A DNA stretch of 33,730 bases from Heliobacteriaceae bacterium (GTDB taxonomy: Bacteria > Cyanobacteriota > Vampirovibrionia > Gastranaerophilales > Gastranaerophilaceae). The translations under genes and the position numbers were made by a program. A model generated the notes under the pieces. That model was not told the DNA's origin. It did no database searches and saw nothing but the letters and a program-made list of their open reading frames with translations. Shown here in pieces: positions 3,250-30,826 of this stretch. Every line of letters begins with the position of its first letter. The first letter of the stretch is position 1. Where the stretch lies: the NCBI GenBank assembly GCA_031265495.1, contig JAISCP010000017.1, positions 1 through 33,730 on the forward strand, given 5' to 3'.

Positions 3250-6200
3250 ATGGTTAACAAAGTTACTGAAACTACATTTACTTATGCACAAGGCGGAAAA
3301 ACAAAAAAGGTAACTATTGATTTTGGAAAAGGAACTTTTAATAAGGCAGAGAAAGCTTATATTAAAGCTATACTAAAATTTGCCGCACCTGAAGAATTGG
3401 TAAAATTTAACGCTGTATTACCGAATTTAAGCAATTATCAGGAGATAGACGAAATCGCTAAGATGATTGACGGGAATATTACTGCAAAAGATGTTACCGA
3501 ACCGAGACTTAAAGTTTTAAAACAAATGAAGGGAACAATATCAACAAAATTACTGCCACTTCCTGAATATAACGCACGTATCGATGAAATTAGAGATAGA
3601 AAATTAGATAAAGAAAACAAATTAAGGGAAGAAATAACGCGAGAAAAAGTTAAGTCAGATGTCAAACCGGCGGCGGTTAATCCCGAAGTTAAGCCCGAAG
3701 TTAAGCCGGAGGTTAAGCCCGAAGGCAAACCGGTAGAGATTAAGCCCGAAGTTAAGCCCGATGTCAAGGTTGAAGAATGGGAAAGGCTCGGCGTGAAATA
3801 TGAAAACATTCACGAAAACGGAAAACATGTAAAACAAATACAAATACTCAATGACGGCAGTGTCAATGAACTTATACTTGACGAAAAGGGTAATGAGAAA
3901 ACATTTACCAAAAAAAATGCAAAAGGGGAAATATTTGAAGTTCAAGAACATACACGTGACGCAAAAGGTAACCCTAAAACAGTAACCTTCAAAAATGCAA
4001 AAGGGGAAATATTTGAAATTCGAGAATGGACACTTGACGAAAAAGGTAACCCTAAAACAGGAACAGTCAAAAATGCAAAAGGGGAAATAATTAAAGTCGA
4101 AGAATATACATTTGATGCAAAAGGTAATCATACAGGAACTAAGGATATAACTGAGCAGACAAAAAAGGCTGCAGAGGTTAAGCCCGAAGGCAAACCGGAT
4201 GTCAAGGTTAAAGAATGGGAAAGTGGGAATGGCACTAAATATAAAGAATTTTACGAAAACGAAAAAAAGGTAAAACAAATACAAACGTACTCTAACGGCA
4301 GTGTCGATGAATATACATATGGCGAAAACGGTAAGATGAAAACAGTAACATACAAAAAGCAAGGCTGGGGAGTAACTGGATCTAAAGAATATACATATTA
4401 CGAAAACGGTAAGGAGAAAACAATAACATCCAAAAATCCAAAAGGGGAAATATTTGAAATTCAAGAATATACACATGACGCAAAAGGTAACTCTAAAACA
4501 ATAACATTCAAAGATGCAAAAGGGGAAATAGTTGAAATTCAAGAATATACACATGACGCAAAAGGTAATATGAAAACAGAAACATACAAGAATGCAAAAG
4601 GGGAAATAACTAGTGCTTACGAACATACACTTGATGCAAAAGGTAATCAGATAACTAAGGATATAACTGAGCAGGCAAAAAAGGCTGCTGAGGTTAATCC
4701 GACGGAAGTCAAACCGGTAGAGATTAAGCCCGAAGTTAAGTCTGAGGTTAAAGAATGGACAGATAAGAATGGCACTAAAGTTAAAACATTTTACGAAAAC
4801 GGAAAACCGGTAAAGCAAATACAAATATTCAATGACGGCAGTGTCCAGGAATATACACATGACGCAAACGGTAAACCTAAAACAGAAACCTTCAAAAATG
4901 CAAAAGGGGAAATAATTAAAGTTCAAGAATGTACATATGATGCAAAAGGTAATTATACAGGAAATAAGGATATAACTGAGCAGGCAAAAAAGGCTGCTGA
5001 GGTTAATCCGACGGAAGTCAAACCGGAGGTCAAACCTGAGGTTGAGTCAAATGTTAAAGAATGGACAGATAAGAGTGGCACTAAAGTTAAAGAATTTTCC
5101 GAAAACGGAAAACGGGTAAAAGAAATACGAACATTCCTTGACGGCAGTGTCGAAGAATATACATATGGCGAAAACGGTAAGATGAAAACATTTACCGAAA
5201 AAAATGCAAAAGGGGAAATAATTAAAGTTCGAGAATGTACATATGATGCAAAAGGTAATCAGATAACTAAGGATATAACTGAGCAGGCAAAAAAGGCTGC
5301 TGCTGAGGTTAAGCCCGAAGTTAAACCCGAAGTTAAGCCGGAGGTTAAGCCCGAAGGCAAACCGGTAGAGATTAAACCCGAAGTTAAGCCGGAGGTTAAG
5401 CCCGAAGGCAAACCGGTAGAGATTAAGCCCGAAGGCAAACCGGATGTCAAGGTTAAAGAATGGGAAAGGGCTGGCGTGAAATATCAAGACGTTTTCGAAA
5501 ACGGAAAACGGGTAAAACAAATACAAACACTCCCTAACGGCAATGTCAATGAATTTATATATGACGAAAACGGTTATGCGAAAGCATGTACCCAAAAAAA
5601 TTCAAAAGGGAAAATAACCGGATTTGAAGAATATACAAATGATGAAAACGGTAAGCGTAAAACAACAACCTTCAAAAATTCAAAAGGGAAAATAACCGAA
5701 TTCTGCGAACATACATATGATGCAAACGGTAAGGAGAAAGGAAAAACATACAAAAATACAAAAGGAAAAATAACCGCAGCTTACGAATATACATATGACG
5801 AAAACAATAAGCATACAGGAACTAAGAATACAACTAAAGAAGCGCAAAAAGCAGCAAAAGAAAAAGCTAAAGCAGACCTTGAACAAGCTAAGAAAGGAAA
5901 AACCGATAGCAAACAAGGGTTGAAAGATGCCCAAAAAGAACTAAAAGAGGCCCAAAAAGCTCATAAAGCCGGCTCTACTCCGGAAACACAAGCTAAATTA
6001 ACAGAAGCTGAGACGAAATTAAATACAGCAAAAAATTCACTCAAAAATTCAAAAACAACCTTAAAAGCAGCAGCAAAAGGCGCTAAGAAGCCAATTGGAA
6101 CAGGCAGAGTAGCAATGGCAAGTCTTTTTGTAATAGGTGTGGGTACTGTGGCAAGCTGGATTTTCGGCGGCAAGAAACCAGAAGATACCGATACTACCGC

Positions 6201-6789
6201 AAAAATACCACCTCTGGTAACGAGTGACTCCACACAAGTAGTTGCGCCACCGTCATTAAGTGATACAACACAAGTAGTTACACCACCGTCATTAAGTGAT
6301 TCCACACAAGTAGTTACACCACCGTCAGGAGACGGTACGCAGCCACCGGCAGGAGACGGTACGCAGCCACCGGCAGGAGACGGTACGCAGCCACCGGCAG
6401 GAAACGGTACGCAGCCACCGGCAGGAAACGGCACACAAACACCGTCAGGCACACAAACAAATAAAGTAATCGTTCAAAACGGCGAAACACTTATAAAATT
6501 AGCTAACAAGTATGGGGTATCCGCACAAAAAATTATAGAACTGAACAAAAATAAAATTAAATACTTTAGACACGCATCTAATTGCAATGATAACAAAAAA
6601 TACGCGGGTTTCCTTGTTGGCGCTGAAATCACATTACCGGACGGCATATACGATTTATCCGGCAACAAATTAAAAGCAGATACAATTAAGGATTACGAAG
6701 ATTACATAGTCAAAAAGAAAAACATCTTCTGTCAGGACAGACTCGACCAGATTTGTACTTCTGAATTCAGACAGGCAGTCAACTGGTAA
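3250..6789 (+). CDS. Modular repeat protein: five large EW..GTK..ENGK..(Y/T)DAKGN repeat modules, KPEVKPE linkers, one TM segment, GDGTQPPA repeats, C-terminal LysM
   Basis: Long ORF with SD (AAAGGGGAATTTATCATG); repeat modules visible in translation; LysM-like VIVQNGETLIKLANKYGVSAQKIIELNK. Confidence 0.85.
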   Translation: MVNKVTETTFTYAQGGKTKKVTIDFGKGTFNKAEKAYIKAILKFAAPEELVKFNAVLPNLSNYQEIDEIAKMIDGNITAKDVTEPRLKVLKQMKGTISTKLLPLPEYNARIDEIRDRKLDKENKLREEITREKVKSDVKPAAVNPEVKPEVKPEVKPEGKPVEIKPEVKPDVKVEEWERLGVKYENIHENGKHVKQIQILNDGSVNELILDEKGNEKTFTKKNAKGEIFEVQEHTRDAKGNPKTVTFKNAKGEIFEIREWTLDEKGNPKTGTVKNAKGEIIKVEEYTFDAKGNHTGTKDITEQTKKAAEVKPEGKPDVKVKEWESGNGTKYKEFYENEKKVKQIQTYSNGSVDEYTYGENGKMKTVTYKKQGWGVTGSKEYTYYENGKEKTITSKNPKGEIFEIQEYTHDAKGNSKTITFKDAKGEIVEIQEYTHDAKGNMKTETYKNAKGEITSAYEHTLDAKGNQITKDITEQAKKAAEVNPTEVKPVEIKPEVKSEVKEWTDKNGTKVKTFYENGKPVKQIQIFNDGSVQEYTHDANGKPKTETFKNAKGEIIKVQECTYDAKGNYTGNKDITEQAKKAAEVNPTEVKPEVKPEVESNVKEWTDKSGTKVKEFSENGKRVKEIRTFLDGSVEEYTYGENGKMKTFTEKNAKGEIIKVRECTYDAKGNQITKDITEQAKKAAAEVKPEVKPEVKPEVKPEGKPVEIKPEVKPEVKPEGKPVEIKPEGKPDVKVKEWERAGVKYQDVFENGKRVKQIQTLPNGNVNEFIYDENGYAKACTQKNSKGKITGFEEYTNDENGKRKTTTFKNSKGKITEFCEHTYDANGKEKGKTYKNTKGKITAAYEYTYDENNKHTGTKNTTKEAQKAAKEKAKADLEQAKKGKTDSKQGLKDAQKELKEAQKAHKAGSTPETQAKLTEAETKLNTAKNSLKNSKTTLKAAAKGAKKPIGTGRVAMASLFVIGVGTVASWIFGGKKPEDTDTTAKIPPLVTSDSTQVVAPPSLSDTTQVVTPPSLSDSTQVVTPPSGDGTQPPAGDGTQPPAGDGTQPPAGNGTQPPAGNGTQTPSGTQTNKVIVQNGETLIKLANKYGVSAQKIIELNKNKIKYFRHASNCNDNKKYAGFLVGAEITLPDGIYDLSGNKLKADTIKDYEDYIVKKKNIFCQDRLDQICTSEFRQAVNW
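6220..6327 (+). repeat. In-frame 36-bp tandem repeats (DSTQVV[AT]PPSLS), about 3 units
   Basis: Direct reading of sequence. Confidence 0.8.
6328..6447 (+). repeat. In-frame 24-bp tandem repeats (GDGTQPPA), 5 units
   Basis: ggagacggtacgcagccaccggca repeated with minor drift. Confidence 0.9.
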
Positions 6790-27313: not shown

Positions 27314-30300
27314 TTATAACTCTACTAACTTTTCGTCAAAAAACTTTGTACGCGTAATATCAAAAATAACGCCGGGTGCAGCCGCATTCATCAGAACATC
27401 AGCGCGCAAAGCCGGGATATCCGTTTTTTGACCTGTTTTTAATACTATGAATAAACATTCATCCACATTATCGCCGCTGCCTGAGGATGCCTGTGAAAAA
27501 CACCCGCCCTCAAACCGGTACGATTTAACCGATGGTTTTATGTTTATTTTTTGAATTAAACCTTTTTTGTTTTTCTTCTCAATAAAAATTTCTTCAGAAG
27601 ATAAAACCTTATTCGTATTATATACCAAATCTTTAAAATCGTAAAGGGGGTAAATATTCTTATTGTTAAAAATCTTCACTTTGTATTCCGCCCAAACAGC
27701 GGTGTGATCTATTGCCGGAGCTGATTTATCTATTTGTTTAACATCAATAATTTTCGCCTGATACGGCAGAACTTTCTCCAACTTTAGTTTTAGATTTTCA
27801 GGTGAAATACTGTCATAAATCTCAATATCGGCAAGTTCGCATTCGCTCCGGGCAAACAGCGGCAGCGCAATTCCCATAGAAATCTTCATACCCGGATTAA
27901 ACCCCTGCGAAAACGCTACATTCAAATCCGTACGGCCAACCGCTTTGAAAAAAGTGTTCTGCCAGTCAAGATGTGAAAAATAACGTAAAATTCCTGTTTT
28001 AGTTAGCTTGATACGGTACCTGTAAACATTTCTTTCAGCAGGGTTGAAATTCGTACCCGCATCGGTTATAATAGAATCAGAGGTTTCGGCGCCCCCCTGG
28101 GTTGTAGAGATACTATCGGGGCAAGCGGTGAAACCTCTTTCATTATTATTAACGGAATTTAATAACCAATATCTGTTTTGCTTTTTGTCGGCCGCTATTT
28201 TTATGCGCGCATATTTGTACTGTCCCGAATATCTATATTTTGCATATAAAACATGAAAACCCGCAATATAGTCTTTTCGTTCTTTGTATAATTTTTCAAA
28301 TCCGTAATATTCACCGTTTAATATAAGTTCGTCAATCTTAGAAAGCAAAAATAAATTTTTAGACTTGTTTTTTGCAATAGTTTCTTCCAGTCCTTTTCTC
28401 GTTAAAAGAATATTTCCGATATCCGGGCGTATTATTGTTTTACCCTGAAAGTCTTGTCTGTACTTTGCTTTAATACTGCCTTTTATTTTGTAATTGTCAA
28501 CATCCTGTTGTGTAAAAGAAACTGTTTTGTCATGACTATATTTGTCCGCCATTGTCTTTTTTGTTTTAAGGTTCCTGCACACTCCGCAATTCACGCACTC
28601 TGTATGGCATGTCGGGGTAAAATCTTTAATATCGGCTTTGTATTCTTTTATAAACCATTCTTTATCAATGCCAACGTCAATAAAATCCCACGACAAAGGT
28701 TCATTGAGAGGATAATTCTTTTCCGCAAGCCCGGCAAGGTCAATTCCCAGCTCCTGCGCTGTTTCATGCCAGATATTTTTGTCAAAATGTTCGCTCCATG
28801 CATCTAAATAACAGCCTTTTTTATAAAGCGCCTCAATATACCGGTTCAGCGATGCATCTCCGCGCGTAAGAACCGCCTCGATTTGAGAGGTAAACTTGTC
28901 ATGGTAATTAATTTTCAAGCCTTTTATGTGCCTTGTTTTATCCTTTAAGTAGTTAATATGTCCGGTTACTTTTTCCAAACTCATCTGGCCGTGCCATTGA
29001 AACGGCGTAAATGGTTTTGGCACAAAGATTGACAGGGTGCAGGTTATTTGCAGCTTCGGGGCTGTTTTCTTAATCTTACCCAGAAGTTCCGCCATTTCGT
29101 CCATGTCTTCAAGCGTTTCGGTCGGAAGCCCGCAGATAAAGTACAATTTAATTCTTGACCGGCCGTTTTCGTACAAAGCTGTCACTGCATCAAGGATTTG
29201 GTCTTCCGAAATATTTTTTTTAATCACGTTTCGCAAGCGCCGGCTGCCGGCTTCGGGCGCAAGCGTCACAGTAGATTTGCGCACGCTTTGAACAAGATTT
29301 GCAAGTTCGGTATCAAACCCGTCAATGCGCTGGCTGGGAAGCGACACTGATATTTTTTTCTTATCAAATTCCGCAGCCAGTTCTCTTATAACTTCTTTAA
29401 TATTTGAATAATCGTTTGAAGAAAGCGAGAGCAGGGAATACTCATCGTAACCGGTATTTGTAACCAGTTCTTTTGTAATTTTGATAATATCTTCAGCGCT
29501 TCGTTCGCGTACCGGGAGGGTTACGTGTCCGGGCTGGCAAAAACGGCACATGCGCCCGCAGCCGCGCCGGACTTCAACAATTGCCCTGTCATGTACCGAT
29601 GACGAAAACGGTATTGGATAGGATTTCAGCGCTGTTTCGTAATCCAATTGCGCAATCCGTTTGGTAACATTCCCGCCTGTCAGAGCCGACCAGCGGCCTG
29701 AATTGTTAATATTCCTTTCTGCAGGGTTGAAATCTAAAGCGTTATCGGTTATAATATAATTGATAGCACCTTTGTCAGGCGAGCCTAACCGGTTATCCGG
29801 TGTAACTTGCAGACTGGCGGGTGCTATTATTTTTACGGTATGACCGGCGTATATTGGTAAAAACTTGTCATATAACGGTATATCAACCTTAAACTCCACC
29901 CGATACTGAATATTATCTATTTCTATTGCACTATAATATATGTTTTGACCTTTTACTTTACCGGCATGTTTTTCGTCAGCAGGTCTGAATTCATAAAAAA
30001 CCGATAACCGCAATAATTCCCTGATTTTAGGATAGACGGAATTGTGCAGAGTTTCTTTGTACCCATGCTTAATTACATCCCGTTTTGCACTTGCATTTGG
30101 TAAAAATATTTCCTGACCCGTAGATTTTATGGTAATGCAACGTTGTTTTGCAAATTCTTCCTGAAGCCACTTTGCCAAAGTTTTTTTATTTTTAAAACAG
30201 GGAATTTCATTGGTGTTAGTTTTTACATGCTGAATTGTTGTTTTTCCCTCTACCAGCGCCTTAATCCGCTGTGCGCGCGGCATGTTTTTTGTTTTCTCCA

Positions 30301-30826
30301 AAATTTCGCAGACCTCAACAATACTGTCTTCTCCGTCGCCAATCATAAAAACGTCAATAAAATCCGATACGGGCAAAGGATTGAAAGCGCATGGGCCGCC
30401 CGCAAAAATAATCGGGTCGTCTTCCGTGCGCTCATCGTTACGGTAAGGAATTCCGGCCATTTCCAGCATTTTTAAAACAGTCGGGTAAGCCATTTCGTAT
30501 TGCAGAGAAAACCCCACAGCGTCAAACTCTTTTAACGGTCTTTTGCTTTCCAGCGCGTACAAAGGCTCGGGATGAAAATCCTTTTGCGGAGCATAAACCC
30601 TGTCCGCCATAAAATCCCGCTGTGAATTTATTCTGTCATACAAAACGCGCAGCCCTAAATTGCTTATTCCGATTTCATACTTGTCAGGGAAGGCAAGGGC
30701 AAAACGCACTTTTGCTTTATCAAAATCTTTATTGCACGATAAAAATTCTCCGCCGACATATTGGTAAGGTTTGCTGCAATTAAAAAGAGCCGTATGATAA
30801 TCTTCAAAGAAAGTACCGGTATTCAT
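27314..30826 (-). CDS. Radical SAM protein (TIGR03960-like) fused to DUF2344/TIGR03936-like domain, with two large in-frame insertions
   Basis: VRRGCGRMCRFCQPGHVTLPVRERS cluster motif; C-terminal YRIKLTKTGILRYFSHLDWQNTFFKAV; insertions at about 29700-30245 and 28025-28540. Confidence 0.9.
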   Translation of the reverse strand: MNTGTFFEDYHTALFNCSKPYQYVGGEFLSCNKDFDKAKVRFALAFPDKYEIGISNLGLRVLYDRINSQRDFMADRVYAPQKDFHPEPLYALESKRPLKEFDAVGFSLQYEMAYPTVLKMLEMAGIPYRNDERTEDDPIIFAGGPCAFNPLPVSDFIDVFMIGDGEDSIVEVCEILEKTKNMPRAQRIKALVEGKTTIQHVKTNTNEIPCFKNKKTLAKWLQEEFAKQRCITIKSTGQEIFLPNASAKRDVIKHGYKETLHNSVYPKIRELLRLSVFYEFRPADEKHAGKVKGQNIYYSAIEIDNIQYRVEFKVDIPLYDKFLPIYAGHTVKIIAPASLQVTPDNRLGSPDKGAINYIITDNALDFNPAERNINNSGRWSALTGGNVTKRIAQLDYETALKSYPIPFSSSVHDRAIVEVRRGCGRMCRFCQPGHVTLPVRERSAEDIIKITKELVTNTGYDEYSLLSLSSNDYSNIKEVIRELAAEFDKKKISVSLPSQRIDGFDTELANLVQSVRKSTVTLAPEAGSRRLRNVIKKNISEDQILDAVTALYENGRSRIKLYFICGLPTETLEDMDEMAELLGKIKKTAPKLQITCTLSIFVPKPFTPFQWHGQMSLEKVTGHINYLKDKTRHIKGLKINYHDKFTSQIEAVLTRGDASLNRYIEALYKKGCYLDAWSEHFDKNIWHETAQELGIDLAGLAEKNYPLNEPLSWDFIDVGIDKEWFIKEYKADIKDFTPTCHTECVNCGVCRNLKTKKTMADKYSHDKTVSFTQQDVDNYKIKGSIKAKYRQDFQGKTIIRPDIGNILLTRKGLEETIAKNKSKNLFLLSKIDELILNGEYYGFEKLYKERKDYIAGFHVLYAKYRYSGQYKYARIKIAADKKQNRYWLLNSVNNNERGFTACPDSISTTQGGAETSDSIITDAGTNFNPAERNVYRYRIKLTKTGILRYFSHLDWQNTFFKAVGRTDLNVAFSQGFNPGMKISMGIALPLFARSECELADIEIYDSISPENLKLKLEKVLPYQAKIIDVKQIDKSAPAIDHTAVWAEYKVKIFNNKNIYPLYDFKDLVYNTNKVLSSEEIFIEKKNKKGLIQKINIKPSVKSYRFEGGCFSQASSGSGDNVDECLFIVLKTGQKTDIPALRADVLMNAAAPGVIFDITRTKFFDEKLVEL
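28079..28138. repeat. Translated palindrome inside radical SAM insertion 2
   Basis: AGAGGTTTC (28079-28087) / GAAACCTCT (28130-28138), perfect 9-bp IR. Confidence 0.8.
29763..29827. repeat. Translated palindrome inside radical SAM insertion 1
   Basis: ATAGCACC (29763-29770) / GGTGCTAT (29820-29827), plus inner CCGG/CCGG pairing. Confidence 0.8.

Follow-up and report, generated by a model that had tools for sequence, protein, structure and literature searches.

Two in-frame inserts in a radical SAM gene were found to contain LPD3 (large polyvalent protein-associated domain 3; Iyer et al. 2017, PMC5512222; Pfam PF18798), and each ends in a predicted small RNA gene written on the opposite strand. 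Related modules occupy several other host genes, the corresponding sites are empty in orthologs, and the antisense promoter, hairpin, and terminator are conserved beyond what coding requires. We put the probability at about one-half that LPD3 and the antisense RNA form a two-part mobile module, either polymorphic toxin-like with RNA immunity or a type III-like pair. The module looks like a selfish toxin/RNA-antidote-like element lodged inside genes that the cell cannot easily lose. Neither an RNA partner of LPD3 nor its insertion into housekeeping genes appears in the excerpts of PMC5512222, and no description of either was found in the open-licence literature. Positions refer to the window, the whole 33,730-nucleotide stretch of DNA that was analyzed.

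LPD3 modules in the radical SAM gene and other host genes

The profile architecture of the 1,170-residue ORF was TIGR03960, Radical_SAM_N2, Radical_SAM, and TIGR03936-DUF2344, with two LPD3 stretches. An earlier reading of this DNA, made from the letters alone (the sequence-only reading), had proposed two in-frame inserts in this gene and had likened them to LPD3, a domain of polyvalent mobile-element proteins, and to BECR-type nucleases. Both inserts were recovered (Table 1), and each matched LPD3 on its own (E = 1.7e-12 and 4.1e-15), scoring 56.4 and 48.0 bits against a curated cut-off of 27. The association with polyvalent proteins is supported by excerpts of PMC5512222, in which PBECR and LPD3 are neighbors in phage polyvalent proteins. 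The nuclease proposal was not supported. AlphaFold models of the two inserts (mean pLDDT, 80 and 73) matched no solved fold well; a Foldseek search of both against the PDB gave no match with an E value below 0.02, no BECR nuclease among the matches listed, and no solved RNase matching LPD3. No ToxN-like fold was found. A BECR-fold RNase was rejected as being without structural support in these models. A search for PBECR2 gave 0 matches in the source genome and likewise 0 in control genomes, and is therefore no evidence of absence. To our knowledge, an activity of LPD3 has never been established.

Table 1. Host gene, inserted modules, and predicted RNA genes, with positions in the window
Feature	Position	Strand	Remarks
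Radical SAM host gene	27314..30826	-	TIGR03960-family B12-binding protein fused to TIGR03936/DUF2344; 1170 aa; two in-frame modules
Module 1	29708..30244 (~537 bp)	-	Host ...RIKALVEG / insert / NNSGRW...; edges accurate to a few codons
LPD3 domain, module 1	29885..30190	-	Class common to the TsaD and MurD inserts
Module 2	28025..28540 (~515 bp)	-	In the linker preceding YRYRIKLTKTG
LPD3 domain, module 2	28169..28489	-	Profile match; AlphaFold mean pLDDT 80
-35 TTGAAA, module 1 RNA gene	29727..29732	+	Encodes FN of FNP on the opposite strand
-10 TATAAT, module 1 RNA gene	29750..29755	+	17-nt spacer; encodes II of IITD on the opposite strand
Predicted small RNA 1	29763..29835	+	Hairpin stem ATAGCACC/GGTGCTAT, T-run TATTTTTA; the palindrome of the sequence-only reading
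-35 TTGAAA, module 2 RNA gene	28044..28049	+	Promoter pattern
-10 TATAAT, module 2 RNA gene	28067..28072	+	17-nt spacer
Predicted small RNA 2	28079..28146	+	Stem AGAGGTTTC/GAAACCTCT, then TTCATTAT

Both inserts were missing from the radical SAM orthologs of one genome of the same genus (G001) and three of the same family (G003, G012, and G015); in the alignments, the module 1 site was empty in G001, G003, and G012, and the module 2 linker was empty in all four. Because these orthologs are without both inserts, the inserts are not an ancestral part of the radical SAM fold, in agreement with the mobile, frame-preserving cassette that had been proposed. Other modules were found at the same places: G002 carried a module of a different LPD3 class at a position nearly identical to that of module 1, and G013 carried another LPD3 module at the module 2 site (radical SAM site 2). 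At site 2 of G002, a short unrelated repeat translating as HVIPNLFRDLAASTDGKTLNRVQGD was observed; the same loop accepts unrelated repeats. In the 95%-complete source genome, the radical SAM, TsaD, and IleRS genes each appeared without a second close copy, and the interrupted genes are therefore presumably in use.

A 10-bp direct repeat, AACAATTCAG, flanks module 1 (29698-29707 and 30230-30239). It is a possible target duplication, but its 532-bp spacing is off by one in frame, and no counterpart was present at the other insert sites. With this repeat as the only candidate, an IS element or MITE was rejected: no transposase, terminal repeat, or consistent target duplication was found.

Related in-frame modules were identified in the genes for TsaD, IleRS, MurD, and FolC, in a GNAT gene, and at three sites of the radical SAM gene, while the copy in an SNF2 helicase was an N-terminal fusion; this recurrence at several sites and in several genes again supports a mobile insert that preserves frame. 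All five LPD3 matches of the source genome lay in host genes (two in radical SAM and one each in TsaD, IleRS, and the SNF2-type helicase). LPD3 was also present in TsaD, MurD, and the radical SAM gene of G002, which is of the same genus, at radical SAM sites 2 and 3 in G013, G017, and G067, and in FolC and a GNAT gene in G038. The host-gene sample comprised 14 LPD3 copies at nine sites, in genomes all of one order. Over 292 genomes of the phylum, matches to the LPD3 profile were confined to genomes of this order; a genome scan with a TsaD-class profile returned relatives from this group only, and a search of the genus of G017 found only two already-known carrier genomes. LPD3 also occurred here in phage-type polyvalent and portal-like proteins and in small standalone genes. 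Scans of viral contigs with single proteins found no relatives, and the PADLOC defense library gave no match.

Compared with empty orthologs, the module edges were clean, and the sites were loops of naturally variable length that also house other, unrelated short repeats. Assembly chimeras or misread frames could be suspected, given that most of these genomes are drafts broken into numerous contigs. However, the TsaD insert occupies the identical site in two genomes with clean flanks, long open frames cross both edges, and the same kind of insert recurs in unrelated contigs and genomes; an artifact is therefore extremely improbable.

Other repeats were observed in the source genome. The MurD gene (contig C30) has a different in-frame insert of about 96 residues, which is not LPD3 and resembles a composite of short repeats, and the IleRS gene contains a TTCAACC microsatellite, also in frame. 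Elsewhere in the window, positions 3250-6789 encode what may be a surface or repeat protein, a 1,179-residue ORF with repeated K/G-rich units (YTYDAKGN...KNAKGEI) whose C-terminal part is LysM-like.

The antisense small RNA gene

The tails of the two inserts were 77% identical over 57 nt, and the block pattern reported from the letters was exact (23/26 identical, a 10-nt variable block with 2/10 identical, then 13/13). The palindromes, with stems GGTGCTAT and AGAGGTTTC, were also present. A reading of the shared exit peptide and adjoining palindrome as a protein-level or transposon-end signature was not supported; on the other strand they constitute a small RNA gene, with a TTGAAA-N17-TATAAT promoter, a hairpin RNA of 45 to 75 nt, and a U-run terminator. 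FNP corresponds to the -35 element, IITD to the -10 element, and KII to the terminator, and the spacing of the DNA beneath IITD..x.FNP was constant across different proteins and genomes. The exit peptide as a protein cleavage signal was rejected, the conserved nucleotides being those of the promoter. An integron attC site or IS200/605 end was rejected as well; fixed promoter spacing, copy-specific stems, and promoter matches elsewhere fit the RNA gene better.

The exact form of the exit module occurred only twice in the source genome. Of 383 genomes of the order, 126 carried a looser motif, TATAANNNAT-N12-TTCAACCC (a reversed control pattern gave only a handful of matches). Most of the 30 looser matches inspected were ordinary promoters. 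Those away from LPD3 were opposite-strand promoters of the form GGGTTGAAA-N17-TATAAT, as seen ahead of fliD-like genes and ahead of a gene for a small structured RNA that was observed in several genomes. The promoter in LPD3 modules is directed back into the module. In G005, 18 copies of the promoter-like motif were spread over many contigs, and several lay close to the end of a contig; a repeat present in multiple copies and bearing a strong promoter is suggested.

All 14 host copies had the antisense promoter, with a 17-nt spacer and at least 11 of 12 consensus bases; by our count, so did about 47 of 66 LPD3 loci. Most phage or standalone LPD3 genes carried the antisense RNA gene. At some loci, among them several that encode large polyvalent ORFs, no clear promoter or hairpin was present near the LPD3 domain. 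In most copies, the stem began 5 to 8 nt past the -10 element and closed 50 to 80 nt past it, followed by a T-run; the stem sequence was different in every copy. Inserts were rewritten with synonymous codons in 200 trials each, and a combined promoter, stem, and T-run score was taken. For 10 of the 14 host copies, no more than 3 of the 200 recodings came up to the native score (0 of 200 for module 2); for the remaining 4, which are individually not significant, 10 to 15 of 200 did. In stems picked without favoring G-U over A-C, G-U pairs numbered 53 and A-C pairs 14 in the antisense reading, which places the RNA on the antisense strand.

Most copies had a single RNA unit. Two tandem units were recognized by eye in FolC, in MurD of G002, and in G292 and by a covariance model in G292 and G204. 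Rfam gave no match in 27900-30400 up to E = 1, and a group I or II intron was rejected on this result; across eight further loci, Rfam gave one weak, sub-threshold match.

The RNA was alignable for standalone LPD3 genes of class 4, where it comprises a terminator stem (P1), P2, P3, and a proposed H-type pseudoknot. Covariation was strong in this class: 99.6% of cells were paired, 13 of 24 pairs were compensatory, and the level was reached by 0 of 500 shuffles. The pseudoknot helix is a proposal, since its pairs hardly vary. The class-4 covariance model matched in 22 of 288 family genomes, mostly adjoining an intact or broken LPD3 gene. In G156, an RNA of this type adjoins a PBECR2 RNase-like gene with no LPD3 there, and the family may serve more than one domain. 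In G230, G291, and G075, LPD3 was absent and the RNA lay close to a relative of the phage late transcription activator genes; it had the promoter TTGACT-N17-TATAGT, a largely retained stem, and no T-run.

These features bear on a quite unlikely alternative, in which the RNA pairs with the host mRNA as a type I-like or cis-antisense regulator, controlling the host gene or a toxin mRNA, and is not bound by LPD3. Complementarity between the RNA and the mRNA through which it is written is complete, and convergent antisense antitoxins are known from type I systems (e.g., in excerpts of PMC3543317). Perfect complementarity, however, does not need the folded multihelix RNA that is under selection here, and in three genomes the RNA lacks a complementary gene.

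The pairing of LPD3 with an RNA was also seen in phages of other lineages. A Helicobacter prophage and a Burkholderia phage had a convergent hairpin with a T-run and a recognizable -10 element behind LPD3 (the Helicobacter promoter is weak, with 8 of 12 consensus bases), and the pairing thus extends beyond this lineage. In Microcystis and Achromobacter phages, strong stems were present behind LPD3, with no clear T-run.

Joint exchange of core and RNA and a candidate two-part element

Comparison of closely related loci showed that the LPD3 core and the RNA interior are swapped jointly while the module ends stay constant. At radical SAM site 3 of G017 and G067, host DNA was 95 to 97% identical and the module ends were 94% and 88% identical; the core, including the RNA interior, had large gaps and was 68% identical where positions could be aligned. 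In G002, two standalone modules arranged in tandem had an identical left segment and stem and a near-identical promoter, with different LPD3 cores and RNA loops. The pattern looks like the exchange of cognate pairs seen in polymorphic toxin/immunity and toxin-antitoxin loci.

A working mechanism can be outlined for the two-part module. Phages would carry the LPD3-RNA pair in polyvalent or portal-type proteins and would spread it. In this bacterial group, modules have entered loops of single-copy housekeeping genes in the one frame that remains open across domain and RNA gene alike, and the host enzyme would thereafter bear an LPD3 domain. The LPD3 core would be the active part, with the cell as its target; its cognate folded RNA, transcribed from its own sigma70-type promoter to its own terminator on the opposite strand at the module 3' end, would bind and neutralize it. 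Loss of the RNA or imprecise deletion would then be harmful, and the element would persist. If the LPD3 domain is harmful without the RNA, every host copy would be expected to retain the promoter. A further reading, offered tentatively and at somewhat below even odds, is that the modules are a new class of mobile element, with an exchangeable protein core on one strand and a cognate structured RNA gene on the other, that colonizes single-copy core genes in frame and makes the cell dependent on it by way of the host enzyme.

The modules could instead be passive repeats that spread at the DNA level and are tolerated in surface loops, with domain and RNA functionless in the host gene. Like rickettsial palindromic elements, they are in frame and presumably translated (excerpts of PMC3733652 and PMC10969869 mention in-frame palindromic repeats), and the loops that they occupy vary in length and accommodate unrelated short repeats as well. 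We consider this unlikely: unlike a decaying passenger, the modules retain promoter hexamers and 17-nt spacing in 14 of 14 host copies, their hairpins exceed synonymous recodings in most copies, and their cores, instead of decaying, give way to other LPD3 cores.

It is very unlikely, in our view, that LPD3 is a carrier without toxicity, binding the small RNA for delivery into cells by phage polyvalent proteins. LPD3-bearing polyvalent proteins are predicted to be injected (excerpts of PMC5512222), and cognate exchange of core and RNA fits binding equally as well as neutralization. An antidote is nevertheless the better fit to the presence of this RNA family next to a PBECR2 RNase-like gene and to LPD3-free RNA copies in a phage-like setting.

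Comparison with known systems

These findings connect LPD3 to an RNA partner and so make the function of this phage domain directly testable. Being encoded in reverse within coding sequence, the partner readily escapes notice, and the case cautions against treating conserved exit peptides as protein features. Toxin-like mobile modules inside IleRS, TsaD, MurD, and other core genes would be a new route to becoming hard to lose.

Inteins are likewise in-frame parasitic segments in conserved single-copy genes, and they have conserved splice-junction residues. The modules described here lie in variable loops, in contrast. An intein was rejected, with no Hint-type domain among the Pfam matches and no constant residue after the exit, and neither an intein nor an intron signature was found in the inserts (Pfam profiles; Rfam over 27900-30400).

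A rickettsial palindromic element is a short repeat of about 100 to 150 bp with a shared palindrome sequence. The likeness that the sequence-only reading had drawn to these elements, at a larger size, is supported: in both cases palindrome-bearing repeats lie in frame in protein genes and are retained, and here they are missing from orthologs. The present modules, however, are about 500 bp long and contain a conserved folded domain and an RNA gene, and their palindrome is a terminator stem that differs in sequence in each copy.

In type III toxin-antitoxin systems, an endoribonuclease toxin is neutralized by an RNA with tandem repeats, whose gene lies upstream of the toxin gene and is co-directional with it. 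Here, the RNA is convergent, antisense at the 3' end, under its own promoter, and usually a single unit. ToxIN and CptIN are nevertheless alike in combining a toxin-like protein with a small folded RNA, and a structured RNA was found here. Possible further likenesses are the pseudoknot proposed in one class and the tandem RNA units recognized in a few copies; type III repeats and a pseudoknot RNA are described in excerpts of PMC8860590 and PMC5772629.

The protein part of the module is the same domain as the LPD3 of PMC5512222. Polymorphic toxin/immunity loci, such as those of the MuF toxins of temperate phages (excerpts of PMC5576092), resemble the modules in having exchangeable cores beside a cognate partner, constant ends, and a phage association; here, by contrast, an RNA serves as the partner, and housekeeping genes harbor the module.
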